This document shows, piece after piece, positions 7,269 to 31,228 of a stretch of DNA of 46,987 nt. Position 1 is the first letter of the stretch. Each line of letters opens with the position of its first letter. This DNA comes from a virus, in IMG/VR virus record IMGVR_UViG_3300035698_004489, positions 1 through 46,987 of that record, one strand, 5' to 3'. A model generated the notes under the pieces. That model was not told where the DNA came from and did no database searches. It worked only from the letters and a program-made list of their open reading frames with translations. The position numbers and the translations under genes were made by a program.

Positions 7269-7814
7269 ATGGAAATCACAGAAAACTGGCTAAGAAAAAA
7301 TGACGCTTGTGCAGGATCAATAAAGGCGTTCAGGAGGTGGAGGTTTCCGAATGGAAAAAAGGATGTAGTTCAACTTATCCACCTGTTGATTGAGGCAGAT
7401 AAGTTGAATTGGGCGAACTGGTTATTGTCATGGGCGTTACCTCAAAGAGATAAGGTTAGGTATGCCGTGTTTGCGGCGAGGTCAGCGCTGATGCTACATC
7501 AAGAGCGTAATCCGCAGGACGAAAGATTTTTGGCCGCTATAGAAGCGGCTGAGGCTGTTATTGAAAACAATAACCGCGAAACAAGAGCGGCGGCTCGTGT
7601 GGCGGCTGATGCGGCGACTTATACGGCGGCTCGTGCGGCGGCTCGTGCGGCGGCTTATACGGCGGTTCGCGTGGCTCGTGTGGCGGCCTATACGGCGGGT
7701 TATAGAGCAGCTAATGCGGCGGCTCGTGTGGTGGCTCATACGGCGGTTGATGCTCTATATGATAAAGCAATGACGGCCATAGTAGAGTATGGCCTGACCT
7801 TAATGGAGGAATAA
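7269..7814 (+). CDS. Imm-5-like protein with alanine-repeat tail
   Basis: The first 110 of 181 residues contain NDACAGSIKAFRRW, LNWANWLLSWALPQ, VRYAVFAARSAL and FLAAIEAAEAVIE. These match my recollection of the putative immunity protein (Imm-5) family, in which W.N/C..., W...L and AAR helices lead into Ala-rich repeats. Residues about 113-165 are such a tail, built of AAR/AAYTA units, and its DNA is a run of imperfect GCGGCT/TATACGGCG repeats (about 7590-7750). Family members occur in bacteria and phages, and their role in phages is not settled. The ribosome site is GGAG. The gene's last codons and stop form part of a direct repeat copied downstream at 8142. Confidence 0.65.
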   Translation: MEITENWLRKNDACAGSIKAFRRWRFPNGKKDVVQLIHLLIEADKLNWANWLLSWALPQRDKVRYAVFAARSALMLHQERNPQDERFLAAIEAAEAVIENNNRETRAAARVAADAATYTAARAAARAAAYTAVRVARVAAYTAGYRAANAAARVVAHTAVDALYDKAMTAIVEYGLTLMEE

Positions 7815-7834
7815 AAATGAAGTACAAGACAAAA
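7802..7834 (+). repeat. Direct repeat A, upstream copy (gene junction)
   Basis: This copy covers the 3' end of the Imm-5-like gene, a GGAGGA site and the start ATGAAGTACAAGACAAAA. It matches 8142-8174 at 31 of 33 positions. Here the start leads into a different frame and is not a gene. The 97-residue gene between the copies looks inserted. Confidence 0.85.
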
Positions 7835-7847
7835 AAGGAGAGACGAA

Positions 7848-8141
7848 ATGGCAATACATCTTCCCTGGACAGACGGTTGCTGTGCTTATATAGAGTTGGA
7901 CAATCACGAAGATATATCCAACTTTATGAAACGCAAACGCACACAAAAAACAGTTATCTACCGATTGGGAGGTGATTTGTTTCCGGTAGACTGTGCTTTA
8001 TGTGGTAAACCGATAACCGAAGAGAGCGGCAATAGAGTTGACGTTTATCCTAAGTTGAAAAAGGTCTTTCCATACCACTACGAATGTGCTTGGAAAATGA
8101 CATTTGCTGCTATTGATAGACTTATTGCTAAGTGTAACTAA
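7848..8141 (+). CDS. Small zinc-finger-like protein (inserted cassette A)
   Basis: This 97-residue protein has an AGGAGAGACGAA ribosome site. CALCGK (C-x2-C) near residue 49 and YHYECAW (H-x2-C) near residue 78 could bind one zinc ion. The N-terminal part has WTDGCCAYIEL and a basic KRKRTQK loop. No family is assigned. The gene lies exactly between two copies of direct repeat A: the downstream copy starts on the base after its stop codon. That suggests insertion between the Imm-5-like gene and the 54-residue gene. Confidence 0.75.
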   Translation: MAIHLPWTDGCCAYIELDNHEDISNFMKRKRTQKTVIYRLGGDLFPVDCALCGKPITEESGNRVDVYPKLKKVFPYHYECAWKMTFAAIDRLIAKCN

Positions 8142-8174
8142 AATGGAGGAACGAAAATGAAGTACAAGACAAAA
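8142..8174 (+). repeat. Direct repeat A, downstream copy
   Basis: It begins directly after the stop codon at 8139-8141 and contains the functional GGAGG and ATG (8157) of the 54-residue gene. Its partner is 7802-7834, 340 bases upstream. Confidence 0.85.
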
Positions 8175-8321
8175 CGCGACGCCCTACGGTCGCGAACCAA
8201 CTTTACAGCATCTAGCGGATGGACTGAAAGGGCTACAGAGACGCGGTACTTCAGTATAAGTGAAGGCAGATTTGTAAAGTGCTGGATACTCGTGCTGGCT
8301 AGAAAGAATCAAGTTCACTAA
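8157..8321 (+). CDS. Small 54-residue basic protein
   Basis: ATG at 8157 follows GGAGGAACGAAA, and the frame ends at TAA 8319-8321, just before the next AGGAG. The product opens MKYKTKRDALRSRTNF and has an aromatic/basic middle and a hydrophobic WILVLA stretch. It is not recognised. The excellent ribosome site and tight fit between neighbours support a real gene. Its 5' end is the unit duplicated at 7802-7834. Confidence 0.65.
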   Translation: MKYKTKRDALRSRTNFTASSGWTERATETRYFSISEGRFVKCWILVLARKNQVH

Positions 8322-8334
8322 GAGGAGAGACGAA

Positions 8335-8655
8335 ATGGATATGAAGTGTTTGCGTTGCTTAGAATCCTGGGATATTAGCTACATTAGAGAGGATATACTT
8401 CCCGATGTCGGCCCGTGTAATCTCTGGAAGGCGGCGGCAAAAGCTCCAAAGCCAACACATAGCAGAGGTTTTACGTTCTCTGCGCCCGGCCCGTATATCG
8501 AGAGTTGCCCAGCCTGTCCTCCGGTTGTAGACGATTCAGTTAAGGATGAGTCGGCTATAATTAGAGCGATAGCAGACTTAATGGGTGATGATATTGATGG
8601 CTTCTGTTCCGAGATTGAGGATATGGAAGCATTGGGTATGTTTTCTGAAGAATAA
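8335..8655 (+). CDS. Small Cys-motif protein
   Basis: This 106-residue protein starts with MDMKCLRCLESWD; the C-x2-C at residues 5-8 and a second CPAC pair near residue 62 could form a zinc ribbon with a long insert. The C-terminal 40 residues are acidic (SAIIRAIADLMGDDIDGF). It has an AGGAGAGACGAA ribosome site, a 16-base string with the ATGG that also precedes the 7848 gene. No function is assigned. Confidence 0.7.
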   Translation: MDMKCLRCLESWDISYIREDILPDVGPCNLWKAAAKAPKPTHSRGFTFSAPGPYIESCPACPPVVDDSVKDESAIIRAIADLMGDDIDGFCSEIEDMEALGMFSEE

Positions 8656-8687
8656 CTTAAATCCGAATAACATGGAGGTGACGAATA

Positions 8688-8753
8688 ATGGGAAACAAGT
8701 CTGTGAAAGATATGGCTGTTGAAGTTGGTTTATTTGACGGATACGAGTATTAG
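8688..8753 (+). CDS. Possible 21-residue small protein
   Basis: GGAGGTGACGAATA precedes ATG at 8688; the frame ends at TAG 8753. The peptide is MGNKSVKDMAVEVGLFDGYEY. The ribosome site matches the pattern of real early genes nearby. The product is too short to place in any family. Confidence 0.45.
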   Translation: MGNKSVKDMAVEVGLFDGYEY

Positions 8754-8777
8754 AATATCAACTAACATAAAGCCGAA

Positions 8778-8813
8778 ACGCCGAAAGGCGTCTGCTGGCA
8801 GGGATGACCAGCA
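8778..8813 (+). ncRNA. Tandem stem-loops in the 8844 gene leader
   Basis: ACGCC (8778-8782), a GAAA tetraloop and GGCGT (8787-8791) form a GNRA-capped hairpin. One base later TGCTGG (8793-8798) pairs with CCAGCA (8808-8813) around a nine-base loop. A purine-rich stretch and the SD for 8844 follow. This looks like a folded leader element, but it does not match a riboswitch class I know. Confidence 0.5.
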
Positions 8814-8843
8814 CCGACGAGGCAACCAACGAAGGGAGAAGTA

Positions 8844-9095
8844 ATGAAAATAAAAAAGCGAGTGCTGTTTATGGGTCAACGCGATATTGACAATAATAAA
8901 TGGAGTAAGTTTTTTTCTTACACAAAGCAAGAATTTTGCCCTTCCTGTAAAAAGAATTTGTATAATGGGTACGCGTGGGAGTGCGAATACGAAAAAAAAG
9001 AAAAGCCCGACATCCTTTGCGAAAACTGTGTCGATGTCGTCTCTTTAAGCGAGTTAATTAAGGTCTACCTTAAGGCACAGATAGGGGCGATGTAA
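8844..9095 (+). CDS. Small zinc-ribbon-like protein
   Basis: This 83-residue protein has CPSC at about residue 32 and CENC near residue 62, a four-Cys arrangement typical of zinc ribbons. The N-terminus is basic (MKIKKRVLF). AAGGGAGAAGTA gives the ribosome site. It ends by overlapping the next gene as TAATG. The leader contains two stem-loops, so translation may be regulated. The function is unknown. Confidence 0.7.
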   Translation: MKIKKRVLFMGQRDIDNNKWSKFFSYTKQEFCPSCKKNLYNGYAWECEYEKKEKPDILCENCVDVVSLSELIKVYLKAQIGAM

Positions 9096-9409
9096 TGCAA
9101 CCCAATTTTCATTCACCTTTACTGTATGGTCGACGACCTCCAGTGATGCGCGATCCTCGTATCTTGTATCCAATCAAGCGTGGGCTGCCTCCTATAGCTA
9201 AGAACGTAGCGCGGAGACGCTTGGATACAAAAATTACCTACGCTTTGACGGGGGCGCATACTTTACAGTATGCCGAGATTGAGGATGCGCTCACCCGTGC
9301 GGGGAGTGGCGACGGCCGCGCGGCTTTCAAGTTGGTTACAAGGATCAACTCCCGGACTGATTACGTTATAGTCGGGGATGGTGTAATGAAATTACAAAGG
9401 AGGCGTTAG
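9095..9409 (+). CDS. Small basic protein, unknown
   Basis: This 104-residue, strongly basic protein begins at an ATG overlapping the previous stop (TAATG), so it is likely translated by coupling. It has Pro/Arg-rich segments (YGRRPPVMRDPR) and an AGSGDGRAAFKLVTRINSR region followed by a beta hairpin, YVIVGDGVMKL. Nucleic-acid binding is plausible from charge alone. It is not recognised. Confidence 0.65.
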   Translation: MQPNFHSPLLYGRRPPVMRDPRILYPIKRGLPPIAKNVARRRLDTKITYALTGAHTLQYAEIEDALTRAGSGDGRAAFKLVTRINSRTDYVIVGDGVMKLQRRR

Positions 9410-9411
9410 AG

Positions 9412-9705
9412 ATGGAGAGATACAATCGATCGGTTGAAGAACTCGAACAGGCACTGGCGGACGCGAAAGAGCAGAAGGAGATTGCATTTCAGGAGAAGGC
9501 GTGGGACTTGGGTCTGGCGATACTGGACGACCGCGAGTTAAGGGGCGACTCGTACAACCAGAAAACGCTGTACGGGCCCTGGGAGGGTTTCTCGCCTCGG
9601 CAGAGAGCAAAAGTAATGAAGAAGTTTTGCCATAAAGCTAAGGGGATGATGAGGTATGGTATAATGGACGCTATCCGCGACGTGCTGGCGAGCGAGGAAG
9701 AGTAG
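9412..9705 (+). CDS. Small coiled-coil protein
   Basis: The 97-residue product starts with a likely coiled coil, SVEELEQALADAKEQKEIAF. A helical region with FSPRQRAKVMKKFCHKAKG and an acidic C-terminus follow. AAGGAGG lies nine bases before the ATG. Codons for the RYGIMD segment include the TATGGTATAAT string (9655-9665) seen in the main promoters, without a fitting -35. No function is assigned. Confidence 0.65.
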   Translation: MERYNRSVEELEQALADAKEQKEIAFQEKAWDLGLAILDDRELRGDSYNQKTLYGPWEGFSPRQRAKVMKKFCHKAKGMMRYGIMDAIRDVLASEEE

Positions 9706-9736
9706 AACGCCCCCCACTTTAACGGAGGAACGAAAA

Positions 9737-10075
9737 ATGGATTGCAAAACTTGCAAATTGAAAGATGGCTGCCCAGTGCGCGACCTTGAGCCCGCGTGGG
9801 ACGAAGCGGGGGTCGTGTGCGATACCTTTAACGACTTCATGGTATTAGCCATTGAAAATACATCACCACTTGGAATGTTTCTGGCTTATAAGCTGATGAG
9901 AGCCAGGCTAAGTGTAGTTAGTGAGCTTGTAGAGAGTTCTTATCCACCAGTCGTCGTAAAGGCAATAGACGAGTTTGTAGAGGTACAAGCTAATAAAGAA
10001 ATGACAGATACAGTTAACGATCTATTAGACTCCGGTAGATACGTGGAGGAAGTCTTAAATGAAATACAATCTTGA
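9737..10075 (+). CDS. Small Cys-cluster protein
   Basis: This 112-residue protein has MDCKTCKLKDGCPV at its start (Cys 3, 6, 12) and CDTF near residue 28, enough ligands for a zinc ion or a small Fe-S cluster. The rest is helical with LGMFLAYKLMRARLSVVSEL. The ribosome site is GGAGGAACGAAAA. The end overlaps the next gene by 17 bases, which indicates tight coupling. It is not recognised. Confidence 0.7.
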   Translation: MDCKTCKLKDGCPVRDLEPAWDEAGVVCDTFNDFMVLAIENTSPLGMFLAYKLMRARLSVVSELVESSYPPVVVKAIDEFVEVQANKEMTDTVNDLLDSGRYVEEVLNEIQS

Positions 10076-10535
10076 CCCAGAAATGGAGCAGCTTAAAGAG
10101 AAATTAAACCAATTAGAGGCGGCTCACAGCGCTATGGCTCACGATGTTGCGGCCTTTATGGGTAAAGCGAGTAGGGCTTTGGATGTTATGGACGAGGTGC
10201 TTACTGAAGAAATAGACGGGTACGCTGAAAAATTCCAAAAGCACTCTCTCGTATTGGTTGTGCGCGGCGTAGTGAGGAATAGAATGGCTCTACATGCACG
10301 CGGCGACCTTGAAGGGTACGCGAAATTAGGCGAACATCTTGACACTATAAAGGCGGCAGCGAAAGAGGACGGATTGCAAAGCCTTTACAACAAGGTCGTA
10401 CGCAAGCTTGAACAGGAAGCCGAGGCGAACAAGCACGCAGAGATGGCGGCCAAAAAGACGCATAAAGAGATTACAGATTTGCCGGACATGAAGGTCGTGT
10501 CTATCGTTCCCCCGGGCAAAGCCGAGAAGCTTTGA
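10059..10535 (+). CDS. Coiled-coil helical protein
   Basis: This 158-residue product is almost wholly helical, with an N-terminal coiled coil (MEQLKEKLNQLEAAH) and a second charged helix at about 115-145. It starts inside the previous gene behind GGAGGAAG. The C-terminus is a short Pro-containing tail. The shape suits an oligomeric scaffold or partner protein in the replication block that follows. It is not recognised. Confidence 0.65.
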   Translation: MKYNLDPEMEQLKEKLNQLEAAHSAMAHDVAAFMGKASRALDVMDEVLTEEIDGYAEKFQKHSLVLVVRGVVRNRMALHARGDLEGYAKLGEHLDTIKAAAKEDGLQSLYNKVVRKLEQEAEANKHAEMAAKKTHKEITDLPDMKVVSIVPPGKAEKL

Positions 10536-10596
10536 ACCCGGAGGTTCGTTTCTCCAAACCAGAAAGGAGGATATAATATAGTTGATTATGACGATC

Positions 10597-10635
10597 GGTC
10601 GGCTTCGGGTTTCGTGCGGATTACCGGAGCCGACC
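10597..10635 (+). promoter_or_regulatory. Stem-loop upstream of the SNF2 helicase gene
   Basis: GGTCGGCTTCGG (10597-10608) pairs with CCGGAGCCGACC (10624-10635) over 12 bases with one G-T, around a 15-base loop. No T run follows, so a processing site or translational element is more likely than a terminator. It lies 32 bases before the GTG start at 10668. Confidence 0.55.
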
Positions 10636-10667
10636 TTATCTAAAAATGAAAGCGAAGGAGAAACAAA

Positions 10668-12626
10668 GTGAAGCTAGTTCATATTAGAACCGGAAGTAGA
10701 AGAACCTCAATAGGAATTGCGGGACGATTGAATTTCTATGAGGGGAAACAGTTGCGCGCTATTGGTGGGTCGCGGAGTAACGCTTCTCCATCACTAAACC
10801 CCCCCTTTAACGAACGGTCGCATTACTTTGTGCCGATGGTGATGGCGCGCCGTCTCTTTAACAAACCGGACAAAAAAGACTTCGGGAAATGGGCGCAACC
10901 AAACTTTATGATGAAATGGGAGTATGCTTTAGGTGAAACCTTTAGCGACCTTCGTATTACCAACGAAGCTTATAGTTTTTACCAGAGGTGGCTCGCGGCG
11001 GAGAAGGAAATAGCTTCGATAAAGCGTAGCGACGAAGCCGTTATCGACAGAGTACTCGCGAGGAACGGTGTTGATGACGCCTTCTTCGCCCGCGAGCCTA
11101 AATTGCATCAGAAAGCGGGCTTGGCTTTTTTCTTAGTTTCGTACGAGCTTGACGCGGGGCATATTATGTTGTTCGACGAGATGCGGACAGGCAAAACGAA
11201 ACAAGCGATTGACATAGCCCGCTTTCTTCTTGTCAATAAGATTATAAATCAGGTCTTGATAGTGTGTCCAAACAGCATCAAGCGTGTCTGGATAAACGAG
11301 TTAATGAAAGACGCGCCCGATAGAGCGTTCCTTAGTACGATAGTACAGGGAACGAAGGCCAAAAGACAAGAAATATGGCGTCAAGGCTTTTTCTTTTACG
11401 TCGTAGGGTATGAATCTTTACGAAATGACATGAAGGAAGCATATGCTTGGCAGAAAGATAAAAAACTTAAATGGCTTTTGATTGTTGACGAAGCTCATAA
11501 GTTGAAGAACGCTGCCGCTTTGCAGACTAAGGTTATTTTAGGTACTGCTAGAAATTATGATGGTCTAAAGCCTGATTATAGTGTATTTTTGACCGGAACT
11601 CCAGTTGCAAATCAACCAATTGACATAGTGACGACATGCAATTTCGTGTGTCCCGGTATACTTGGGGAGAATGTGGAACACTTCAAAACTCGCTTCACCA
11701 TCAGGGGAGGTTATACCGGAGGAGAGGTGACTGGCTATCAGCACTTAGACGAGATACGATGGAGATTAGCTCGCATATCTATGCGCAGAGTGCGCTCTGA
11801 TGTAATGTTTGACGAGTCAGTGATTATGCCGCGATACGGAACCTTAAAGGGCGACCAGTTAAAAGCTTACGAAGATATGCGAGACAAGCTCTATGCCGAG
11901 ATAATTGGACTTAGCGGTGAACCGACCGCTGTTCAAGCTCGTAATCAACTATCAAAGATGATACGACTTCAGCAAATTACCACCGGTTACCTATCTCCAG
12001 ACCCACAGACTATCGGATGGTTCAAGAATTACGGCTGGAAGATACAAGAACTGGATGATTTGCTAAAAGATTATCTGGCTGACTTTGGCAAGATAGTAAT
12101 TTGGTCGAGGTTTGTACCTGTTTTGTTGCATCTTTTAGAAAGGTACAGGAAGCATGGTGCTTTGATTTGTCGAGGTCAGATGGGAGACAAAGCGATAGAA
12201 AATATGTATGCTTTCCAGCGGAAACCAGAACACAAAATTATGCTTGCACAGTATCAAACTAGTGAAGGTAAAGGGTTTCAGCCGGCTACTGCTGCGGTAT
12301 TTCTTGACAAATGGATGTCTCCAGCTCTGAACAAGCAAGCCGCCGATAGAATTACAGGAATTGAAAATCCTGTTACAACTTGTCTAATACCCTTTATAAC
12401 AGAGGGTACTATTGACGAGCGCATTGAGTTTTTGTTGCAAGAGAAAAGGGATTGGTCGGATGCGATAACCGGAGACAAACGAACCAACGAAATCAAGTTG
12501 CCGCATCTTGATAAACATACGCTTCTATATCTGTTGGCTAATCCTGATGAAGCTAAGGAATACGAGTCCAGATTTAAGGAGGAAAAAGATGGACAAAGAA
12601 AATTTGATCTTAGAAAAAGTAAATGA
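10668..12626 (+). CDS. SNF2-family DEAH helicase/translocase
   Basis: The start is GTG behind AAGGAG. This 652-residue protein has motif I DEMRTGKT (170-177), motif Ia CPNSIKRVW, motif II DEAH (274-277) and motif III LTGTP (308-312). The C-terminal helicase lobe shows IVIWSRFVP, SEGKGFQPATAAVFLD and a Q..DRITG arginine-finger motif. SNF2 ATPases translocate on duplex DNA and remodel or clear bound proteins. Phage members often sit in replication modules, as here. About 150 N-terminal residues precede motif I and are not recognised. Confidence 0.9.
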   Translation: MKLVHIRTGSRRTSIGIAGRLNFYEGKQLRAIGGSRSNASPSLNPPFNERSHYFVPMVMARRLFNKPDKKDFGKWAQPNFMMKWEYALGETFSDLRITNEAYSFYQRWLAAEKEIASIKRSDEAVIDRVLARNGVDDAFFAREPKLHQKAGLAFFLVSYELDAGHIMLFDEMRTGKTKQAIDIARFLLVNKIINQVLIVCPNSIKRVWINELMKDAPDRAFLSTIVQGTKAKRQEIWRQGFFFYVVGYESLRNDMKEAYAWQKDKKLKWLLIVDEAHKLKNAAALQTKVILGTARNYDGLKPDYSVFLTGTPVANQPIDIVTTCNFVCPGILGENVEHFKTRFTIRGGYTGGEVTGYQHLDEIRWRLARISMRRVRSDVMFDESVIMPRYGTLKGDQLKAYEDMRDKLYAEIIGLSGEPTAVQARNQLSKMIRLQQITTGYLSPDPQTIGWFKNYGWKIQELDDLLKDYLADFGKIVIWSRFVPVLLHLLERYRKHGALICRGQMGDKAIENMYAFQRKPEHKIMLAQYQTSEGKGFQPATAAVFLDKWMSPALNKQAADRITGIENPVTTCLIPFITEGTIDERIEFLLQEKRDWSDAITGDKRTNEIKLPHLDKHTLLYLLANPDEAKEYESRFKEEKDGQRKFDLRKSK

Positions 12627-12792
12627 GAGTAAGTTTTACCCGTGTCATGACGAGTATAAAGCATTTCTCAAAAAGCTCAGTGTATCGGAGTTAGTTTTGG
12701 TAACTCATGATTTAAGGCGTTCCCCAGAAGATAAAAACTATTTGCTTGCGGCACTAATGGAAATGAAAAGGAGGGCTAAGTGTCAACAATAA
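12589..12792 (+). CDS. Small helical protein overlapping the helicase gene
   Basis: The chosen ATG (12589) has AAGGAGGAAAAAG upstream and lies 38 bases inside the helicase gene. A longer open frame to 12508 has no site and is rejected. The 67-residue product is charged and helical (SVSELVLVTHDLRRSPEDKN) with a basic end. It is probably translated by coupling with the helicase. The function is unknown. Confidence 0.65.
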   Translation: MDKENLILEKVNESKFYPCHDEYKAFLKKLSVSELVLVTHDLRRSPEDKNYLLAALMEMKRRAKCQQ

Positions 12793-13229
12793 TGCTTGAG
12801 CGAAAGAATTGGATATTTCATCCTCATACCAAAGCGGGTAAAGAGTCATTCCAGATAGAGGATAGAAACGAACACGAAAGGTTTATGCGAGAACAATTTG
12901 GGTGGATACCTTTATTTGCAAATACCGAGCTGACCTGTAAAGTGTGCGACGAGAGGATAAAAGGGAATGACGCACTAAGTCATCTTCAGACCAAGAAACA
13001 CTTAGCAAAAAGGGAGGAGTTGCTTCAGAAAGTAAACTGTATTGATCCTGACTTTTGTGACGGGTGTCCTAACTTGATACAGGAAGATAATCCGTGGAGT
13101 GAGATGACGGAGCAGGTGTGTCGTCTTGGTTATGCTTATATGTTGGATGGTGATATTCCGACTATTGCATACTGTATTGACGAGGACTTGGAAAGACCTT
13201 TGTGCTGTACTTCTTATACAAGGAGCTAA
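12780..13229 (+). CDS. C2H2 zinc-finger protein with second Cys cluster
   Basis: The GTG at 12780 sits five bases after AAGGAGG, better placed than the in-frame ATG at 12792. This 149-residue protein has C53-x2-C56, then H68 and H74, in TCKVCDERIKG...HLQTKKH, a U1/matrin-type C2H2 finger. A second part has CIDPDFCDGCP and later CCT, giving four or more possible metal ligands. C2H2 fingers of this type bind RNA or DNA in eukaryotes and occur now and then in phages. The role is probably nucleic-acid binding in the replication block. Confidence 0.7.
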   Translation: MSTIMLERKNWIFHPHTKAGKESFQIEDRNEHERFMREQFGWIPLFANTELTCKVCDERIKGNDALSHLQTKKHLAKREELLQKVNCIDPDFCDGCPNLIQEDNPWSEMTEQVCRLGYAYMLDGDIPTIAYCIDEDLERPLCCTSYTRS

Positions 13230-13232
13230 ACA

Positions 13233-13787
13233 ATGAATCTACAAACAAACCTTGACAACGGGATGCAGCTAGACGACCTTGATGCAATGAAGCCATTGGA
13301 GGCGGCTATACAGGCACAAAAAGAGTATCTATTTCTGAATCAGGAAATGAAAATAGCTGTAGCAAGGCGTAGCTATACCAGGGATAGACTCATTGCCGAA
13401 CTTGAGGCTAGAGGCAGCGATAGAGATGGAAATGAAGATGGCAAGGTACTTTTAATGCACAAGACCTATCCAAAGGTAACAGACCACGAAGCATTAAAAG
13501 AATATATCTACTCACTTGACGAGCCTGTCGGCACTTACTTGAAGGAGGTGTTTATTAAAGGGAATAAAAGTCAGGGTATTGATAACCCGCTAGATATATT
13601 AGTGGAGAAAGCTATGTTGCGCTCGATAGAGGAGGATATAGACATTTCAGAGGCTATGCCTCCTGGACTTACCGTTACCACCGATGCAAGTGTCAGGGTA
13701 ACATTGAAAAAGAACACTGGCGAGACGGCGCCCTTTAAAGATACTAGTAAATATCCAGAATTGGATGCAGCATTGGAGGAGAAATGA
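13233..13787 (+). CDS. Conserved-looking helical protein, unknown
   Basis: This 184-residue protein has AAGGAG before its ATG. It has a long helical N-half (KPLEAAIQAQKEYLFLNQEM), a Ser/Asp/Gly turn region, an acidic middle (SIEEDIDISEAMPPG), and a C-terminal beta segment VTTDASVRVTLKK. It is not recognised. It lies between the zinc-finger gene and small helical genes leading to the SSB-like gene, so a DNA replication or recombination partner is likely. Confidence 0.65.
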   Translation: MNLQTNLDNGMQLDDLDAMKPLEAAIQAQKEYLFLNQEMKIAVARRSYTRDRLIAELEARGSDRDGNEDGKVLLMHKTYPKVTDHEALKEYIYSLDEPVGTYLKEVFIKGNKSQGIDNPLDILVEKAMLRSIEEDIDISEAMPPGLTVTTDASVRVTLKKNTGETAPFKDTSKYPELDAALEEK

Positions 13788-13788
13788 A

Positions 13789-13971
13789 ATGCTAATGGAG
13801 TTGGAAGAGTTTGTAAAACAGATTGATGTTCTAACCGAAGCGGTAAAGGCTTTAATGATAATAGCGGTAGATGATTTGCTTGCTATTGGTATTCGCTCAG
13901 ATGATGAAAATGAAAAAGTTATTGGTTTATCTAGTATTGTTACTAAGATAGCCGAATTGGAGGAGAATTAA
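13789..13971 (+). CDS. Small acidic helical protein
   Basis: ATG at 13789 is chosen because GGAGGAGAAATGA precedes it; a longer frame to 13765 is inside the previous gene without support. The 60-residue product is acidic and helical (LEEFVKQIDVLTEAVKAL, SSIVTKIAELEEN) with hydrophobic heptads. It could pair with the next helical protein, which starts two bases after its stop. Confidence 0.6.
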   Translation: MLMELEEFVKQIDVLTEAVKALMIIAVDDLLAIGIRSDDENEKVIGLSSIVTKIAELEEN

Positions 13972-13972
13972 A

Positions 13973-14269
13973 ATGATTGAAGAAGGAGTCGAAGAAGTAA
14001 AAAAAGCTGGTTTTTGTGATAGAATAGACAAGATGCACGGCACTACACTTACAACCTTAAACTTGAGCATAGCTCGCCTTGAGAATAAAGTTAAATCAAT
14101 AACCATGCGCGATTTAGCTCCAGACAACGAATCGAAACCTGATTCTTCGGCCAGGGAGTCAAAAGGTTACGCAAACACTGAGCTGGGAGAAAAGATTGAA
14201 TCTCTTGACCATGAAACAATGTTCTTGGTTGCTAAATTGGACGCCGTGATAGAGAAGATAGTACTTTAA
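13973..14269 (+). CDS. Small coiled-coil protein
   Basis: The 98-residue product has GGAGGAGAATTAAA before its ATG. It contains LNLSIARLENKVKSI and LGEKIESLDHETMFLVAKLD, two amphipathic helices joined by a polar Ser/Pro/Lys linker. No catalytic residues are apparent. It may form a helical partner with the 60-residue product just upstream. Confidence 0.6.
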   Translation: MIEEGVEEVKKAGFCDRIDKMHGTTLTTLNLSIARLENKVKSITMRDLAPDNESKPDSSARESKGYANTELGEKIESLDHETMFLVAKLDAVIEKIVL

Positions 14270-14298
14270 CCGAACACAATCATGAAGGAGTAAGTAAA

Positions 14299-15144
14299 AT
14301 GGCAAAGAAAGCGTTGACCACTGGTGGCTTTGATGCTCTAGATGCAGAACTTAAAGAAGAGGACGCAGGATTTAATCCTCGACCTGTTACGGTAAAGATT
14401 AACCATCAGTCGGCAGAGTTCGAGATACCGGGCGTACCCGCCGTTGATGATCTTGAGGCCGTGATAATTGCGGCCCAAAAATGTAGGGTGTTCTTCCCAA
14501 AGATGGGAACAGATGCCTTGACTGACGAACTATCAGCCTTTACAGGCAAGCAGCCGTTCTGTAGTTCTCAAGACTATGTTCACGGAAAACTTGCCGATGT
14601 TGATTGGGATAATAAGCCTCCGACTTCAGCGGAAGGACTCAAGGATAAAATTGCCGAGGGTGGACTATTCTGTGGTCAGTGTCCGTTGAATAAATGGGAG
14701 TCAGTTACGCTGCTTGGTAGAACGGGCAGGGGTAAAGCTTGTGATGATAGGAGACGCCTTTGCCTCTGGAAAGAGGGATGGAATGTACCGGTCATACTCG
14801 GTGTATCGCCAAGCTCTATCAGGAGTTGGGATGAGTACTGTTCGTCTCTGGTTATAGGAGGATACAGGTCTTATCACGCAGTAACCAGGTTGACACTCGA
14901 AACAGTGACTGCACCAAACAGGAAATACGCGGTTATCAAATTCAAGTTTAAGAACCCAATAACCGCGGAGATGCAAACAGAACTGATGTCTAAGGTCACA
15001 ATGCGGGGCGAAGAGCAGACCCTCATCAAGGCGTTAGTCGACATCTTTAACAGGCGAGAACTTGTAGAGGACGAAGAATATCCAGAAAACGGCAATGGAA
15101 CTAAGGTTGCTCCTGATGCCGATAATTTGGGAGAAGATTTCTAA
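14299..15144 (+). CDS. Putative single-stranded DNA-binding protein with zinc site
   Basis: This 281-residue protein has C88, a CGQC pair (125-128) and C148 in GRGKACDDRRRLCLW. That pattern, followed by ILGVSPSSIRSWDEY, matches my recollection of a phage family described as SSB-like: CxxC, GKACK.RR, PPSS. The C-terminus is acidic and ends DNLGEDF, like the acidic tips by which SSBs hold partners. It has a GGAG site and precedes the methyltransferase. The last four codons, stop and overlapping ATG are copied 278 bases downstream as a direct repeat. Confidence 0.6.
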   Translation: MAKKALTTGGFDALDAELKEEDAGFNPRPVTVKINHQSAEFEIPGVPAVDDLEAVIIAAQKCRVFFPKMGTDALTDELSAFTGKQPFCSSQDYVHGKLADVDWDNKPPTSAEGLKDKIAEGGLFCGQCPLNKWESVTLLGRTGRGKACDDRRRLCLWKEGWNVPVILGVSPSSIRSWDEYCSSLVIGGYRSYHAVTRLTLETVTAPNRKYAVIKFKFKNPITAEMQTELMSKVTMRGEEQTLIKALVDIFNRRELVEDEEYPENGNGTKVAPDADNLGEDF

Positions 15145-15147
15145 TGA
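15130..15147 (+). repeat. Direct repeat B, upstream copy
   Basis: GGAGAAGATTTCTAATGA covers the end of the SSB-like gene (GEDF, stop) and the overlapping ATG of the 84-residue gene. It is identical to 15408-15425. It also supplies the SD for the inserted gene. Confidence 0.9.
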
Positions 15148-15398
15148 AAGTAAAATTTCGGTGTAAAATGGATGTGACTTTTATAGTTGAAGGCGGTGAA
15201 GATGTGGGTATTATTGAGGCAATGGAGCAATTCCCAGGGCTGGTTAAACAAGACATGAAGGGAGAAAGTGTATTTGATGCGCCCACTCATATAGAAATGA
15301 AACGCGAAGATGATCCAGAGTGGGAAATTGATATTGCCCGTATTCGGAAAATGGAAGAAGAAATGGCAAGTCAGGACGCCTGGACAAACAGGGGTTAA
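15144..15398 (+). CDS. Small acidic protein (inserted cassette B)
   Basis: This 84-residue product starts at an ATG overlapping the SSB-like stop. It opens with a beta strand MKVKFRCKMDVTFIV and continues with acidic helices (IDIARIRKMEEEMASQ). It is not recognised. The gene lies between two identical 18-base copies of the SSB stop/start junction, so the older order was probably SSB-like gene then methyltransferase. Confidence 0.7.
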   Translation: MKVKFRCKMDVTFIVEGGEDVGIIEAMEQFPGLVKQDMKGESVFDAPTHIEMKREDDPEWEIDIARIRKMEEEMASQDAWTNRG

Positions 15399-15407
15399 AG
15401 AAACTTA

Positions 15408-15425
15408 GGAGAAGATTTCTAATGA
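15408..15425 (+). repeat. Direct repeat B, downstream copy
   Basis: Identical to 15130-15147. It lies nine bases after the stop of the 84-residue gene and holds the ribosome site and ATG (15422) of the methyltransferase. The codons for GEDF here are untranslated leftovers. Confidence 0.9.
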
Positions 15426-16564
15426 CAACTAAGCAAAAGGCTTCCGGTCACGTCAACGTCAAAGACGTGGCCGGAGACTATAAAACCGTAAACCGTGTTT
15501 GGCTCGACAAAAATGCTGTAAAGATTCACTGGTTTATTGAAGAAACCAACAGCCATTGGCACAAAACCTATTTTACGAGTCGCGCAATCCATGACCATCA
15601 AGCAAAAGGTAATTGCAGGTTAGCATGGATGGTGCTGGACGAAATGGAAGGGCAGGGCTGGATCAATCCAAAATCAACTATTATACTTGATAATATGTGT
15701 GGGATTGGGAGTTTCCTTATTGTTGCCGCCTTAAAAGGGTATAACGCTATTGGTATTGAGCTTGAAAAGAGGTTCTATGAAGATATGATAGGTACTGAAG
15801 ACTTTATAGATACTAATGACGAAGAAGATCTCTTTATGGGCGTTAGTAGAGGAAAACAGCCGGGAACAATATCGAATTTTCATAGCCTTACATTCAATGT
15901 TCCTTCTGTGGGGAGTATTCAGGTGATAAATGGCGACGCCCGCTTTGCTGATGAAATTATACGCAAAGTTGGAATTGAGTTCGACGATTACCAGACAGAT
16001 GACCTTGGCGTAGTCTGCTCTCCGCCATACGGTAACAGGTTGTGGGATGCTGGGTTGTCTCGGTTAGAAAACGAAACCGGACGCGCTCGGTATTCCAACG
16101 ACGAAGACAACATCGGCACTTGCCGTATAGCCGTTGTTAATTCACCTCCGTACAGTCGCTCAACAGAACATAGCGACAGTCAGATGGATGGCTTCAAAGA
16201 AACTCCAGTATCAGGTCATCGAGGTTGGCTATACAGTGACAGAGCCAACATAGCCGTGTTAAAGTTGGGCGAATACGACAAGGAGATGTTGAAGGTCTAT
16301 CAAGCCCTTTACAGAACCTTGTCTGTTGGCTCTCCTGTCGCGCTAATAACTCGTAATTTCATCCAGAAGGGAAAGATAGTAGCCTTGGATGAGCTAACAG
16401 TGAAGTTGATGGAACAAGCGGGATTCACATATCAATTTACACGTCGGGCAAACCTGTCTGACATTTCGTTTTTCAAGCGAATCAATTGGGATACAGCGCA
16501 CAAATCAAAAGGACTTCCCTTAATTACTTGGGAAGAAGTAACATTCTATAGAAAGGAAAGATAA
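15422..16564 (+). CDS. DNA methyltransferase (SPPY type, N4-cytosine or N6-adenine)
   Basis: This 380-residue protein has motif I LDNMCGIGSF (residues 89-98), which binds S-adenosylmethionine, with the acidic GIELE strand after it. The catalytic motif IV is CSPPYG (199-204). A second NSPPYS (240-245) lies 40 residues later. SPPY-type motifs are typical of amino-methyltransferases acting on cytosine N4 or adenine N6. No restriction partner is nearby, so it probably protects phage DNA or marks it. It is translated from a duplicated junction and precedes a possible RHH gene. Confidence 0.85.
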   Translation: MTTKQKASGHVNVKDVAGDYKTVNRVWLDKNAVKIHWFIEETNSHWHKTYFTSRAIHDHQAKGNCRLAWMVLDEMEGQGWINPKSTIILDNMCGIGSFLIVAALKGYNAIGIELEKRFYEDMIGTEDFIDTNDEEDLFMGVSRGKQPGTISNFHSLTFNVPSVGSIQVINGDARFADEIIRKVGIEFDDYQTDDLGVVCSPPYGNRLWDAGLSRLENETGRARYSNDEDNIGTCRIAVVNSPPYSRSTEHSDSQMDGFKETPVSGHRGWLYSDRANIAVLKLGEYDKEMLKVYQALYRTLSVGSPVALITRNFIQKGKIVALDELTVKLMEQAGFTYQFTRRANLSDISFFKRINWDTAHKSKGLPLITWEEVTFYRKER

Positions 16565-16566
16565 CG

Positions 16567-16860
16567 ATGGGTAAAGGCGAAGAACGAGGAATTTATGTAA
16601 ATCTTCCAGTAATTCTGGATAAGAAGTTGGCTCTACTCGCAAGGGTACTTCCAGTAAGACCGAACGGTAGGGGCTGGGCTAAAAAAGATATTATTGCGCT
16701 TGCCTGTGAAAAGTTTGTGGATAAGTGCGATGAATACTTTGACGGTATATCAGACCTTGACGAAATGATCGAACAGGCGAAAGGAATCAATATAGAAGAT
16801 GTGCAAGACAGCGACTCGGATATGCCTAAAGAAAATGCAGGACTTAGAGAGTTTGAATGA
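16567..16860 (+). CDS. Possible ribbon-helix-helix regulator
   Basis: In this 97-residue protein, GIYVNLPVILDKKLALLARVL followed by GWAKKDIIALACEKFVDK resembles a ribbon-helix-helix fold: one strand and two helices. The remainder is an acidic tail. AAAGGAAAG lies before the ATG. If RHH, it would be a DNA-binding repressor that could act on the dyads in the control region. This assignment is weak. Confidence 0.5.
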   Translation: MGKGEERGIYVNLPVILDKKLALLARVLPVRPNGRGWAKKDIIALACEKFVDKCDEYFDGISDLDEMIEQAKGINIEDVQDSDSDMPKENAGLREFE

Positions 16861-17005
16861 TGAGTTCTGTATAGAGTGCTGGCTAGGGAGCAAACAGTAT
16901 TTTGATCGCAAAGAATGCTTCGAGGCAAACTGTGTAACCGAGGAGGAATTTGATGGAATCCCAATTCAACCCAAGCACGGACACCGCCCAGAGTCGATTA
17001 GCTGA
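16835..17005 (+). CDS. Possible small Cys-rich protein
   Basis: This is a 56-residue frame with CIECW, RKECFEANC, a plausible metal-binding set. It overlaps the end of the 16567 gene and the start of the 16953 gene. The start is uncertain (16799 or 16835), and neither has a strong SD. It is kept because the Cys pattern resembles the other small early proteins. It could be chance. Confidence 0.35.
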   Translation: MQDLESLNDEFCIECWLGSKQYFDRKECFEANCVTEEEFDGIPIQPKHGHRPESIS

Positions 17006-17168
17006 TAATAAAGAAGTCGATACACTTAAACATCTAGTCAGATTACATCCACGAGAAGCAATGGAATGCCTCTCGTTTAATCAAATGCTCAAGTATATAC
17101 TTGAGCATAAAAATATACCGCTAGCTCTTGTACGAGTAAAGGTGGCATTGCTCAAAGAAGGGGTGTAA
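16953..17168 (+). CDS. Small helical protein before the primase-MCM gene
   Basis: ATG at 16953 is six bases after AGGAGG; the TTG at 16950 is less likely. The 71-residue product has a polar N-terminus and helices LKHLVRLHPREAMECL and MLKYILEHKN, then a basic end. It stops two bases before the TTG of the primase-MCM gene, whose translation it probably couples to. It is not recognised. Confidence 0.65.
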   Translation: MESQFNPSTDTAQSRLADNKEVDTLKHLVRLHPREAMECLSFNQMLKYILEHKNIPLALVRVKVALLKEGV

Positions 17169-17170
17169 AA

Positions 17171-20849: not shown

Positions 20850-20851
20850 AT

Positions 20852-20876
20852 GAAATGGAGGTATTGGTGAAATGAA
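20852..20876 (+). repeat. Direct repeat C, downstream copy
   Basis: Identical to 20473-20497. It starts two bases after the stop of the 118-residue gene and gives the ribosome site and ATG (20872) of the small membrane protein. Confidence 0.9.
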
Positions 20877-21042
20877 AGACTACCACAAAAAACTTTACAA
20901 ACTGGCAGAAAAAACAACTAATAGGATGAGTAATAATCTTGGCCCGAATTGGGGAATAAACGAATGGGTGTGGTTTATAATTGCAGTGATAATATTTTTT
21001 GGAGCTATCGCCGCACTTATTAGCTTAGGGTGGCACGACTGA
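20872..21042 (+). CDS. Small single-span membrane protein
   Basis: ATG at 20872 has GGAGG ten bases upstream; the frame ends at TGA 21040-21042. The 56-residue product has a basic N-terminus (KDYHKKLYKLAEK) and one membrane segment, VWFIIAVIIFFGAIAALISL, near residues 33-53. It could be a holin-like or membrane-anchoring protein. With a single span, no lysis role can be claimed. Confidence 0.65.
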   Translation: MKDYHKKLYKLAEKTTNRMSNNLGPNWGINEWVWFIIAVIIFFGAIAALISLGWHD

Positions 21043-21063
21043 TCGCTAAAAAGGAGATGATAA

Positions 21064-21414: not shown

Positions 21415-21869
21415 TGTTAGTTAGTTCCGCTGCTAGAAAGTACGCGCATGGCGATATGTCCTTAGCGGAAGATATACAACAAGAAATAAATATATCTATG
21501 TTACAAGGACACAACTTCTTCGAGGCTGTTCGTGACGGCATAGACTTTATGCGCCGATATACAAGATGTGCTACGAAACAAGCGAACAAGATTGTACTTT
21601 GGCCTGACATGGATTTGTATATTGATCTAAATCAATCAACCGAAAATATGATACTTACCAATATAATGGTGGAGCGCATTCTTGACTGTTGGCCTAAGGA
21701 AAGTATCGAACACGAGATACTGGTAAAGCGTTTTTTCGAAGGGTTTACCTATGAAGAAATAGGAGAACAATATGGCAAGAGTAGGTGGTGGGCGAGTACG
21801 AGAATTTATAGAATGAAAAAACAAATAGAGGAGAGATACAATGTCAAAAATTCAAGACCCTCTGTATGA
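21414..21869 (+). CDS. Sigma-70-family-like transcription factor
   Basis: The ATG at 21414 overlaps the previous stop (TGATG). Of 151 residues, the N-terminal half looks like sigma region 2 in outline (LAEDIQQEINISML, EAVRDGIDFMRRYTRCATKQ). The C-terminal half is a clear region-4 helix-turn-helix: ILVKRFFEGFTYEEIGEQYG followed by KSRWWASTRIYRMKKQIEE. Being near the end of the early block, it is a good candidate for switching on middle or late genes. Recognition sequence is unknown; the late promoter also has a full host consensus. Confidence 0.65.
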   Translation: MLVSSAARKYAHGDMSLAEDIQQEINISMLQGHNFFEAVRDGIDFMRRYTRCATKQANKIVLWPDMDLYIDLNQSTENMILTNIMVERILDCWPKESIEHEILVKRFFEGFTYEEIGEQYGKSRWWASTRIYRMKKQIEERYNVKNSRPSV

Positions 21870-22929
21870 GAAACAATGGAATCTCAAACTAATGAACGTT
21901 GAGGAAGCGTGGAAATACTCAACCGGTGAAGGCGTTGTAGTTGGTGTCCTTGATTCTGGAGTCGATGCTACACATCAAGACTTGGGATGGGGTGAGTATA
22001 TAGAGCTATCCGCATCCGATACTCGTAATATTATAAGAGATAAAACTAGTCATGTTTATGCTCAAATAGCCAAAGAAATACACCCGAAGATTTTGCCGGG
22101 TTGGGATTTTGTGCATAATGACGATTTCACCTTTGATCTCTACAGGCATGGCACATATATGGCTGGCATTATTGCCGCCGACAGAGACAACATAGGTATC
22201 GTTGGCGTCGCCCCTGATTGCAAAATTAGGCCGTATGTGGTACTGGATAGCGGCGGTTATGGCAATCAGTTTAATCTAGCGGCAGCCATCAACATAGCCG
22301 TTGAAGATGGATGCAACATAATCAATATGAGTCTGGCATGGTGGAATAAGGATAATGCTGTACAAAAAGCAGTGACCGCCGCTGTAAAAGCTGGCGTTAT
22401 ACTCATCGCCGCTACCGGCAATAACGACATGGAAAGAATTATGTACCCCGCCGCTTATGCTGGGGTGATAGCCGTCGGTGCTTGTAACTGTAGAGGTACC
22501 CGATGGGTGCATAGCGAAGAAAGAGGAAGTAACTACGGAGATAAACTACTTTGTATTTGTCCCGGAGACGGACAGCCTACGACCCAGAGGCTTCGTAGCA
22601 GACATACAAACGTAGACGCTACATCCGCTGCCACTGCCAACCTGAGTGGAGTGGCCGCGCTAATAAAGGGAGCTTATGGCTTTTTAGATACGGAAAAATT
22701 CGAGGAGTTGATACGGGAAGGATCGCATTTAACTTGTCAAAGTAATTTTGTTGGGTGTGGAGTTCCCGATGCTGGAGAGATGGTTCGGGCTGTAATGGCG
22801 GAACCGGCGCAACCAACTCCGACGAAGCTGGGCGGTATTGATCTTGAAATGTTTGTATCCGAGATTGAGTATGTGGAAGAGGGGCTAAAGAACATAAGGG
22901 AGTATGTTGAAGGGTTTATAAAGGGGTAG
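21841..22929 (+). CDS. Subtilisin-like serine protease (S8)
   Basis: This 362-residue protein has a catalytic Asp38 in GVLDSGVDATHQDL, His103 in RHGTYMAGIIA, oxyanion Asn194 in AATGNND and Ser262 in DATSAATANLSG. The complete triad suggests an active enzyme. No signal peptide or transmembrane segment is present, and there is no clear propeptide. A helical C-terminal tail of about 50 residues follows the fold. It overlaps the sigma-like gene by 29 bases and ends the plus-strand block. Possible targets are virion proteins, host regulators or the cell envelope. A head-maturation role is less likely, as the scaffold is a separate P22-like gene. Confidence 0.85.
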   Translation: MSKIQDPLYEKQWNLKLMNVEEAWKYSTGEGVVVGVLDSGVDATHQDLGWGEYIELSASDTRNIIRDKTSHVYAQIAKEIHPKILPGWDFVHNDDFTFDLYRHGTYMAGIIAADRDNIGIVGVAPDCKIRPYVVLDSGGYGNQFNLAAAINIAVEDGCNIINMSLAWWNKDNAVQKAVTAAVKAGVILIAATGNNDMERIMYPAAYAGVIAVGACNCRGTRWVHSEERGSNYGDKLLCICPGDGQPTTQRLRSRHTNVDATSAATANLSGVAALIKGAYGFLDTEKFEELIREGSHLTCQSNFVGCGVPDAGEMVRAVMAEPAQPTPTKLGGIDLEMFVSEIEYVEEGLKNIREYVEGFIKG

Positions 22930-28674: not shown

Positions 28675-28806
28675 TCACCTCGGTTTCTCTTGTTTGATTA
28701 TATTCGTCTGAGTTATAATAGCTGGAGCAGCTCTATCTTTTCTAGTTCTAACGGTTCTTGCTGGTGGAGAATGCCTATCCGATAATACCTTGTGATTTTT
28801 AACCAC
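28675..28806 (-). CDS. Possible 43-residue basic protein
   Basis: The GTG at 28806, overlapping the tail-hub stop, follows AAGGAGG by ten bases. The frame ends in TGA at 28677-28675, touching the next ATG. The product is basic and Pro/Arg-rich (SDRHSPPARTVRTRKDRA). The fit between neighbours is exact, but the product has no family and could be a translated spacer. Confidence 0.45.
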   Translation of the reverse strand: MVKNHKVLSDRHSPPARTVRTRKDRAAPAIITQTNIIKQEKPR

Positions 28807-30643
28807 TGTGCCCAAGCCTCCTTAAGAATAGATATGTTAAAGATTCAATAGAGCCGGCAGTCCACGTTATCTCCAAAGAAAATAACCTACCCGCTATACC
28901 GCTAAAGCCTACCGGCCCGTCAAAGCTGGTTGGAGACTGTGTTTCTTCTAGAGTATCATCCTGATTATAAAGGTTCATAGTAACACCGGTGAGTCCGTTC
29001 TGTTGTACTTGAATACCCCTGATTACTGCGTGCATAACTCCGTTGCGTAGGTTCAACCATGCGTGCCGTAGTTTGGCCGTGATGGACGTTCCGTTGTCGT
29101 CAATGGCGTCTGGGTCGTAATAGTGATTCAATTTGCGCCCTGTCCCCCCTATGGAACGCCCCTGGGCGTCCACACAGAAACATGATACATTGACGTTGGT
29201 ATCGTACCCCCAACGTCCTGTGGCGATATGACACACAAATGCGTTCCCTGACGGCTGTGATAGTACATAGAACGCCTCGTTGTCATCGTCAGTATACACC
29301 ACCCCTGCACATTCGTTGGATAGACCTGCGAGGTTGTTTATGTTTTTGGATAGTCTGGTTATGGTTGATGAGGTTATCATCCAGACGCCATGAACATTGT
29401 TGTAAAATATCAGAGCGTCATCTCCATAAGACGCTAACGACCTTGGAGCGGTACACCCTAAACCAAACTCGGTTTGACTACCGGTAACCTCTCCACCAGC
29501 GACCACTTCCATTATTGGCTGTGCTTCTGGATCTCCTGCTATAACATAAATTGAGCGTTTCTTGAAGATGTAAAGGGAGTTTCCCCTCACTGCTAGACAG
29601 GTAATAACATCTCCGTCGTCCTTCCTGACTTCTATCCAATTGTCTGACGGCCATTGCTCTGGCTCTCCTATAGCTGAGTATCTAAGAACTGAAGGGTCGG
29701 TAAGCGTATTCACCCCGTAGATTCTATCTTTATAATAAGTAAATAATGTTAATCCAGCCTCTGGTGGAGTCCAGTCTATACTCGTGTCTAAAGGGGGGTA
29801 CTTAACTAGATTCTTATCAAGATCGGCATTACCTATTCCGTCAATAAACGCATGACTCGTATTTTCAAGTTCTGCTAGTCTAAAATATGTAGAAGTCTCT
29901 AACGATTGCGGGTTGTCCTCTATTCTAGTTCCATAAAGTTCTATGTTTGTCACCTGCGGGTCGGGAGAGGCTTGAACAGTTACGCTTCGCTTAAACAAAT
30001 TGAATACATCCTGAGCCGCATTTTCGGCAACTCCATCAGAGTCATGCGTTGCGGAGAACAAAGACGCCGTGTAGTCTTGTAGTGAAGTCCACCCACCTTT
30101 ACGGCGCGTATATCTATACTTATACCTTCTCCATCCGGCTATATTTACCGCATTAAGAGGAGCGGTACTCTTAACTATAATTGGAAGGTCGGTAGGTGCT
30201 GAAATTCCTACCCGTTCATAATCTATAGCATCATACTTGTACGGTACGTTGACCCCGTCCCCTATAATAGCCCAATCAGTATACTCCACAATCCAGACAT
30301 CTGAAGTTCCAAGCGGGTAGCCATCGTTTATCTCGATGTAATCATCGTTACCTATCTCCCAAGCAAACAGTTTAGTACCAGAGCTATAAAGATATTCACG
30401 ATAGAAGTTGGCAATGCCGGCATTACTCCACTCTCTTGAATACTCGTACACAACGTCAATGGTTCCATCTGATAAATCATCTGCATCAAGACAGGACTGC
30501 CCGCCTCTGAACTTTGTATCACCAGTATTTGTTCTTATATTCTCAGAGTCAAGCAGTGATGTATGCGGAGCTTTACCGCGACCAGAGTTTGTTCCTGATA
30601 CAAGTAATCCTAAATCAAATGTCGGTATGTTGCGATAATTCAT
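28799..30643 (-). CDS. Tail hub/stabilisation protein (P22 gp10-like)
   Basis: This 614-residue beta-rich protein resembles phage stabilisation or tail-hub proteins with a beta-propeller plan. Landmarks include YRNIPTFDLGLLV at the start, LFTYYKDRIYGV, VRGNSLYIFKKRSIYVIAG and FYNNVHGVWMITSSTITRLS, each like a propeller blade. It would form the short tail tube or nozzle below the portal and adaptor. The length is close to that of such proteins. It follows the small 53-residue gene. Confidence 0.65.
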   Translation of the reverse strand: MNYRNIPTFDLGLLVSGTNSGRGKAPHTSLLDSENIRTNTGDTKFRGGQSCLDADDLSDGTIDVVYEYSREWSNAGIANFYREYLYSSGTKLFAWEIGNDDYIEINDGYPLGTSDVWIVEYTDWAIIGDGVNVPYKYDAIDYERVGISAPTDLPIIVKSTAPLNAVNIAGWRRYKYRYTRRKGGWTSLQDYTASLFSATHDSDGVAENAAQDVFNLFKRSVTVQASPDPQVTNIELYGTRIEDNPQSLETSTYFRLAELENTSHAFIDGIGNADLDKNLVKYPPLDTSIDWTPPEAGLTLFTYYKDRIYGVNTLTDPSVLRYSAIGEPEQWPSDNWIEVRKDDGDVITCLAVRGNSLYIFKKRSIYVIAGDPEAQPIMEVVAGGEVTGSQTEFGLGCTAPRSLASYGDDALIFYNNVHGVWMITSSTITRLSKNINNLAGLSNECAGVVYTDDDNEAFYVLSQPSGNAFVCHIATGRWGYDTNVNVSCFCVDAQGRSIGGTGRKLNHYYDPDAIDDNGTSITAKLRHAWLNLRNGVMHAVIRGIQVQQNGLTGVTMNLYNQDDTLEETQSPTSFDGPVGFSGIAGRLFSLEITWTAGSIESLTYLFLRRLGHSG

Positions 30644-30776
30644 GTTTAAGTTTAATCTCCGCTTCAGGCTTGCCTAACCACCCAATGCGATCCCCTGTTA
30701 GTATTCGCTCTATACAAGATGCCAGAAAGCCATCATATCCATATAGCTCAATTCTTCCATCTTTACAGATTGTCAT
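30615..30776 (-). CDS. Small 53-residue protein
   Basis: ATG at 30776 follows AAGGAGCGGGGCAAA; the stop lies 28 bases inside the tail-hub gene. The product begins MTICKDGRIELYGYDGFLA and ends in a charged helix. It is not recognised. The same 15-base ribosome site also serves the phosphatase gene upstream. Confidence 0.6.
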   Translation of the reverse strand: MTICKDGRIELYGYDGFLASCIERILTGDRIGWLGKPEAEIKLKHELSQHTDI

Positions 30777-30791
30777 TTTGCCCCGCTCCTT
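30777..30791 (-). repeat. Direct repeat D, downstream copy (RBS)
   Basis: AAGGAGCGGGGCAAA in mRNA sense, starting on the base after the phosphatase stop (30794-30792) and serving the 53-residue gene. It is identical to 31228-31214. Confidence 0.85.
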
Positions 30792-31214
30792 TCACCAAAT
30801 AAACCCTTTATCTATCATCCAGTTCTTTTTATCTTTGACCTGCGCCCTTTTTATAGCTTTCTTGAATTTCACATTCCTATATACATTCAACCAATGAGCC
30901 GCTACCAATGCCGACCGATTATTACCAGCCGCACAATGAATTAAGATATTATCATCTCGTCTTGCGTGAGTATATACAGCTAAATCAAGTACGGCGGCAG
31001 CAGCATTAAGATCATTCTTGAAAGCCAGTCCTAACTTGGGATCATCTAATCCCCATTTAAGATAAACACAATCAGGAAAAATTGGTGTAGCAATATCATT
31101 ACAAACATTGAAGACAATACCAATACCAAACTTCTTTAACAACGTTTCATTACTTGCGTCTTTTAGATTGCCTATATAAATCATAGGCTTATTTGTTCCT
31201 TCTAATAATCTCAT
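30792..31214 (-). CDS. Dual-specificity/tyrosine phosphatase-like protein (cassette D)
   Basis: This 140-residue protein has ILIHCAAGNNRSA with H93, C94 and R100, the HCx5R phosphate-binding loop of cysteine phosphatases. D57/D58 in GLDDPK could be the general acid. The compact size fits the dual-specificity group. The substrate may be phosphoprotein, RNA end or sugar phosphate. It lies between structural genes and is bounded by two copies of the same 15-base ribosome site, so it looks like an added gene. Its ATG is at 31214. Confidence 0.8.
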   Translation of the reverse strand: MRLLEGTNKPMIYIGNLKDASNETLLKKFGIGIVFNVCNDIATPIFPDCVYLKWGLDDPKLGLAFKNDLNAAAAVLDLAVYTHARRDDNILIHCAAGNNRSALVAAHWLNVYRNVKFKKAIKRAQVKDKKNWMIDKGFIW

Positions 31215-31228
31215 TTGCCCCGCTCCTT
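31214..31228 (-). repeat. Direct repeat D, upstream copy (RBS)
   Basis: AAGGAGCGGGGCAAA in mRNA sense, whose last A begins the phosphatase ATG. It is identical to 30791-30777; the phosphatase gene fills the space between. Confidence 0.85.

Follow-up and report, generated by a model that had tools for sequence, protein, structure and literature searches.

Single genes between duplicated gene junctions in a tailed phage: probable scars of out-of-register recombination at gene slots

The stretch of DNA analyzed here in full (the window) is the 46,987-base record IMGVR_UViG_3300035698_004489, which by its gene content belongs to a tailed phage, with the following landmark genes:

1869–3386, minus strand: terminase
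10668–12626: helicase
17171–20209: primase/helicase-like protein
41579–42646, minus strand: major head protein
44696–46393, minus strand: portal

Elsewhere in the window, gene 21414–21869 displays a sigma-70 region 4-like domain (PF04545, E 5.6e-07) and is possibly a phage sigma factor, and gene 7269–7814 contains an Ala-rich stretch with a 12-nt period (GCGGCT...) at 7556–7760. No annealing protein was found in the part of the gene set that was scanned against family models.

Four genes of the window are each flanked by a direct repeat, at the coordinates that the original prediction had given. We refer below to the upstream gene as U, the flanked gene as Z, the following gene as V and the junction as J; at site 1, where there are two junctions (Jx and Jy), the gene at 8157 is X.

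7269–7814, plus strand: site 1, gene U, ending in LMEE-stop, with the SD within its last codons
7802–7834 and 8142–8174, plus strand: site 1 repeat (Jx), 33 nt with 2 mismatches; copy 1 holds the U end (MEE-stop), SD, ATG and the opening codons of a stub of X; copy 2 runs from the base after the stop of Z, with a U-like frame that reads MEERK-stop
7836–7851, plus strand: site 1, copy 1 of the second junction (Jy), with the SD and start of 7848–8141
7848–8141, plus strand: site 1 flanked gene, 97 aa, no family match
8323–8338, plus strand: site 1, copy 2 of Jy, with the SD and start of 8335–8655
15130–15147 and 15408–15425, plus strand: site 2 repeat, 18 nt, exact
15124–15147 and 15402–15425, plus strand: longer form of the site 2 repeat, 24 nt with 2 mismatches; copy 1 holds the end of 14299–15144 (NLGEDF-stop), the SD and the start of the gene at 15144, and copy 2 holds NLGEDF-stop with two synonymous changes, and the SD and start of the methyltransferase gene 15422–16564
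15144–15398, plus strand: site 2 flanked gene, 84 aa, no family match
20473–20497 and 20852–20876, plus strand: site 3 repeat, 25 nt, exact; copy 1 holds the end of 20209–20496 (EMEVLVK-stop), the SD and an ATGA start overlap, and copy 2 holds an identical EMEVLVK-stop, and the SD and start of 20872–21042
20493–20849, plus strand: site 3 flanked gene, 118 aa, absent from relatives
20872–21042, plus strand: gene after copy 2 of site 3, 56 aa with a hydrophobic segment, absent from relatives
30777–30791 and 31214–31228, minus strand: site 4 repeat, 15 nt, exact, minus-strand AAGGAGCGGGGCAAA; copy 1 (31214–31228) is the SD and spacer of the phosphatase gene, and copy 2 (30777–30791), directly 3′ of the phosphatase stop, is the SD of 30615–30776
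30792–31214, minus strand: site 4 flanked gene, with a dual-specificity phosphatase domain (PF00782, E 3.5e-13) and an HCAAGNNRS motif

At sites 1–3, copy 1 combines the last codons of U with an SD and ATG, while copy 2, lying after the flanked gene, retains a U-like C-terminus with a stop that remains readable, as had been described from the sequence before; at site 4, the SD and spacer alone are repeated. The earlier observation that, in two of the four, copy 2 follows the stop of the flanked gene without a gap is true for sites 1 and 4; copy 2 of site 3 starts two bases later than this. The synonymy between the copies of site 2 has a chance of 0.03 to 0.18 and is thus weak evidence. Site 1 had been read as another simple case, and this part of the description does not stand, as two junctions are duplicated there: Z is preceded by Jx, the first codons of X and Jy, and followed by Jx, X and Jy, such that the first X is a stub and the first 33-nt copy opens this stub of the gene at 8157, not the flanked gene 7848–8141. 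A weaker possible junction duplication (13770–14000) is seen at the starts of 13789–13971 and 13973–14269, which share ATTGGAGGAGAA-T-AAATG (score 14).

Every repeat contains an SD and a start codon, and one reading would be that strong ribosome sites merely resemble each other by selection or chance. A shuffled-sequence comparison, which had been proposed as a possible refutation, indicates that such repeats are not expected: exact direct repeats of at least 15 nt at a spacing of 60–600 nt number five in the window against 0.03 expected per genome from dinucleotide shuffles of 1-kb blocks (the low-complexity gene 7269–7814 was left out of the count), and each of the five runs across a start codon, at an equal or near-equal distance from it in both copies. 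To see whether a common SD consensus accounts for the repeats, we also compared the start regions of same-strand gene pairs (match +1, mismatch −2; threshold, a score of at least 16). In the window, this score is reached by 3/64 adjacent pairs and 2/62 pairs at distance two, and by 0/831 pairs more than five genes apart (maximum 14). Across 69 non-redundant related loci, the counts fall from 13/2263 for adjacent pairs through 6/2059, 4/1895, 2/1768 and 1/1662 to 1/5645 for pairs six or more genes apart; these counts rest on automatic gene calls, and a few of the 13 adjacent matches are tandem paralogs. Neighboring gene starts thus share far more sequence than distant ones, both in the window and in the related loci. 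Look-alike ribosome sites are refuted by the shuffles and by the distant starts of the same genome, which share no such sequence, and we consider this reading scarcely credible. The same distance dependence separates the repeats from the Start Associated Sequences of Cluster K mycobacteriophages, a 13-bp motif found just upstream of start codons at 11–19 places genome-wide, for which a role in translation initiation has been suggested (PMC3203893). That motif is fixed across the genome, whereas each of the window's repeats is specific to one neighborhood. At locus L081 (6746–7188), GGAAAGGACAGAGTAATG is common to three successive gene starts, which suggests repeated insertions in one slot.

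Direct repeats at the flanks of a gene could also represent the target-site duplication of a mobile element, homing endonuclease or transposase, and HNH genes do occur among the lactococcal insertions considered below. However, a family-model scan of the four flanked genes detected neither a nuclease nor a transposase domain, the repeat length varies from 15 to 33 and the repeats stop at start codons; we accordingly reject homing or transposition on the variable length and because the flanked genes show no such enzyme, and regard a target-site duplication as very improbable. Alternatively, the junction could have been duplicated locally in tandem, alone or together with the gene behind it, after which one of the gene copies was replaced or diverged. 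Such an origin could accommodate site 1, where a two-junction block with a gene stub is repeated, and paralog pairs with shared starts do exist, both in G005 and in the window (33217/35297). The 20-nt repeat at the starts of the latter pair (33217–33783 and 35297–35869) was rejected as a further case because these are apparent methyltransferase-like paralogs, belonging to the same family and aligning to the same G009 gene; gene 33785–34369, which lies between them, has a homolog in G001. At sites 2–4, Z and V are instead non-homologous (local protein alignment scores 17–23), which contradicts a tandem gene duplication at these sites. Along with the skunavirus alleles described below, this makes a local duplication rather unlikely.

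The original prediction had proposed close relatives as a check, in which the flanked genes should be missing and the junction single. Neither a DNA-level search of phages with positions 7000–22000 (15 kb), nor single-protein scans for relatives, nor an exact scan for the site 3 junction elsewhere returned a match; searching also yielded no donor for either the phosphatase or the 118-aa protein, and no U-J-Z parent of the window's junctions was found. Alignment-based scans yielded eleven related records, which were compared in full or in large part. The nearest is G009 (head protein 79%, several other proteins 55–69%), and the head protein of G001 is at 62%; as no close relative was found, the window's junctions are not comparable base by base. 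The proposed comparison bears out the prediction at sites 3 and 4: homologs of 20209–20496 and 21064–21414 adjoin in G001, G002 and G007, which lack both intervening window genes, and homologs of 31230–32084 and 28799–30643 are adjacent in G009. The relatives thereby lack two small genes rather than one at each of these sites, and the site 4 phosphatase is in none of the relatives searched. In G001, a 21-codon mini-ORF with ATGA overlaps at both ends lies between the site 3 neighbors (43199–43260). The slot of site 2 holds other genes in relatives (an 89-aa gene in G001, three genes in G008 and others in G002), none of which matches the site 2 flanked gene, and for site 1 no relatives were found for comparison.

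These absences could also be read as losses, with the repeat-flanked state being ancestral and the relatives having lost the gene via recombination between the junction copies, given that direct repeats of such size can recombine. This leaves the origin of the repeat itself unexplained, and site 3 would need several losses (G001, G002 and G007) as against one gain. In a five-protein tree, G009 is the sister of the window, followed by G001/G008/G010, with G002/G007/G012 outside; as empty relatives are thus placed both as sister and as outgroup, gain is more economical than loss, and the tree favors gain at sites 3 and 4.

The states of such slots can be followed in lactococcal skunaviruses, eleven of which we compared for gene-sized indels. 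Most of these indels have short repeats, and the pattern of the window appears at three junctions. First, sk1 ORF37 is flanked by a 19-nt J repeat with one mismatch, which is a single copy in relatives. Second, gp27 of PhiM1127/10W18 is flanked by a 23-nt J repeat with one mismatch, for which there are relatives with a single copy. Third, a 155-codon HNH segment in phi7/ASCC310 has a 16–17 nt exact repeat, with one copy in relatives. In phi7 (L139, 24890–25681) and also in L141, an HNH segment continues in frame into the next gene, whose own SD and ATG are kept within the fusion; separately, L139 has a single gene between 38-nt repeats (at 20714 and 20988) that look less like a bare SD than like an early promoter. 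The slot that holds gp27, bounded by U and the transglycosylase, is seen in all states: neither Z nor V (sk1, fd13, ASCC310, 37201 and i0139), V only (P008), Z only (phi7 and 56301), Z-J-V (PhiM1127 and 10W18), and V then Z with a Z-start remnant preceding V (05601). The rearranged slot of 05601 (L147, 1500–2173) reads U, a truncated Z start, V and another copy of Z.

Z is found in 88 records, V in 91 and Z-J-V in at least 84 (at least 80% coverage of a query spanning the junction), and these counts, with 84 tandem and few single, are also compatible with an old tandem from which genes were later deleted. P008, with V only, has flanks ~99% identical to those of tandem phages and may be a deletion product of the tandem, as a history of gene loss would predict. 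The Z proteins of phi7 and 56301 are more diverged (75–81% identity), so these phages are unlikely to be recent deletion products, and the existence of phages with Z alone also counts against a local duplication. The bases that differ between the two J copies of sk1 match variants in the U genes of other phages, as expected for two parents and contrary to a duplication within one genome. ORF37 itself is present in 18 records, about 13 of them near-identical, against 378 skunavirus terminase matches, which is at odds with an ancestral gene that was lost; it is also found at another place in phage 63302, with the homology bounded by its SD and stop codon. Taking sites 3 and 4 and the skunavirus slots together, we consider gene loss an unlikely origin of the pattern. 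Among Bacillus-phage and other close pairs, a long repeat was seen at one of 11 indels; as most gene-sized indels in close pairs have short or no repeats, gain with a junction repeat is a minority route.

Hence, we posit that the repeats are probably scars left when a gene slot gained a gene through out-of-register recombination. Such a slot would lie between two conserved genes, with related phages carrying different small genes (Z or V) behind the same junction J, formed by the end of U, the SD and the start codon. A left arm U-J-Z, broken just past the stop of Z, would be joined to a right arm broken inside its own U end, ahead of J-V, and the crossover of both arms would produce U-J-Z-J-V, in which each gene has a ribosome site. 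The repeat would then be the overlap of the two arms from the breakpoint to the start codon, ending at the ATG since the two genes are unrelated from there on. Selection would retain those recombinants that have kept U and Z whole and left V its SD; where the SD of V is inside the coding end of U, this end must be present twice. Among the repeat cases, U does not overlap the following start more often than elsewhere (10/18 versus 46%, p=0.48), so that test lends no support to the selection step. Later recombination between the copies could remove Z cleanly, and as a tandem can decay by such deletion, single states need not be ancestral. For the repeats of the window, we infer out-of-register joining, the contribution of two parents and the direction and order of events. 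The idea of a repeated way of adding one gene between two others survives as a description of the outcome, with the proviso that two genes are absent from relatives at sites 3 and 4; a dedicated mechanism is not needed, as unequal recombination suffices when combined with selection that keeps the neighbors and ribosome sites intact.

Lambdoid linkers and lambda ninR are examples of modular exchange at short boundary sequences. Such exchange and morons are cited in PMC3029335 and PMC6316719; morons are likewise single genes added between conserved genes, with recombination near gene borders, but classical morons are complete transcription units, whereas the flanked genes of the window are tightly packed with their neighbors. 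Closer counterparts are gene 14 of Corndog and gene 60 of YungJamal (Cluster O mycobacteriophages). In each case, one gene lies between direct repeats (17 bp, or 24 bp and imperfect) situated at a gene junction, of which relatives have a single copy, and most base differences in one YungJamal copy are synonymous in the upstream gene (PMC4351075). In LRRHood (Subcluster C1), an extra segment with genes 43–46 lies between 29-bp direct repeats, one within the terminal part of the preceding gene and the other ahead of the following gene; Cali has one copy (PMC3029335). For all three, acquisition by recombination versus loss between the repeats was left open (PMC4351075, PMC3029335). The window likewise has a direct repeat at a gene junction around an extra gene and, as with Corndog 14 and LRRHood, relatives of sites 3 and 4 lack the gene and have the neighbors adjacent. 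The differences are that Corndog 14 and YungJamal 60 are isolated cases in closely related genomes, whereas the window has four in one phage without close relatives; that every repeat of the window holds an SD, with gain and loss being weighed here via the skunavirus slot states; and that the LRRHood segment has four genes, as against one or two in the window. The scars of the window therefore belong to a kind already known from single mycobacteriophage cases and are not new in kind. As to the recombination itself, relaxed homologous recombination by phage recombinases has been argued to dominate phage mosaicism (PMC3945230).

How phages add single genes between packed, overlapping genes without breaking the neighbors is debated, with recombination at short shared boundaries set against illegitimate recombination. 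Gene-gain events of this kind are recorded directly in duplicated junctions, which are detectable in a single genome and could mark recently acquired genes in large phage collections (here, a phosphatase and several small proteins). We tentatively suggest that out-of-register joining of alternative slot occupants might be a general, measurable route of single-gene gain, whose scar may be recognizable in one genome even when no relatives are at hand, and would mark recent gains.
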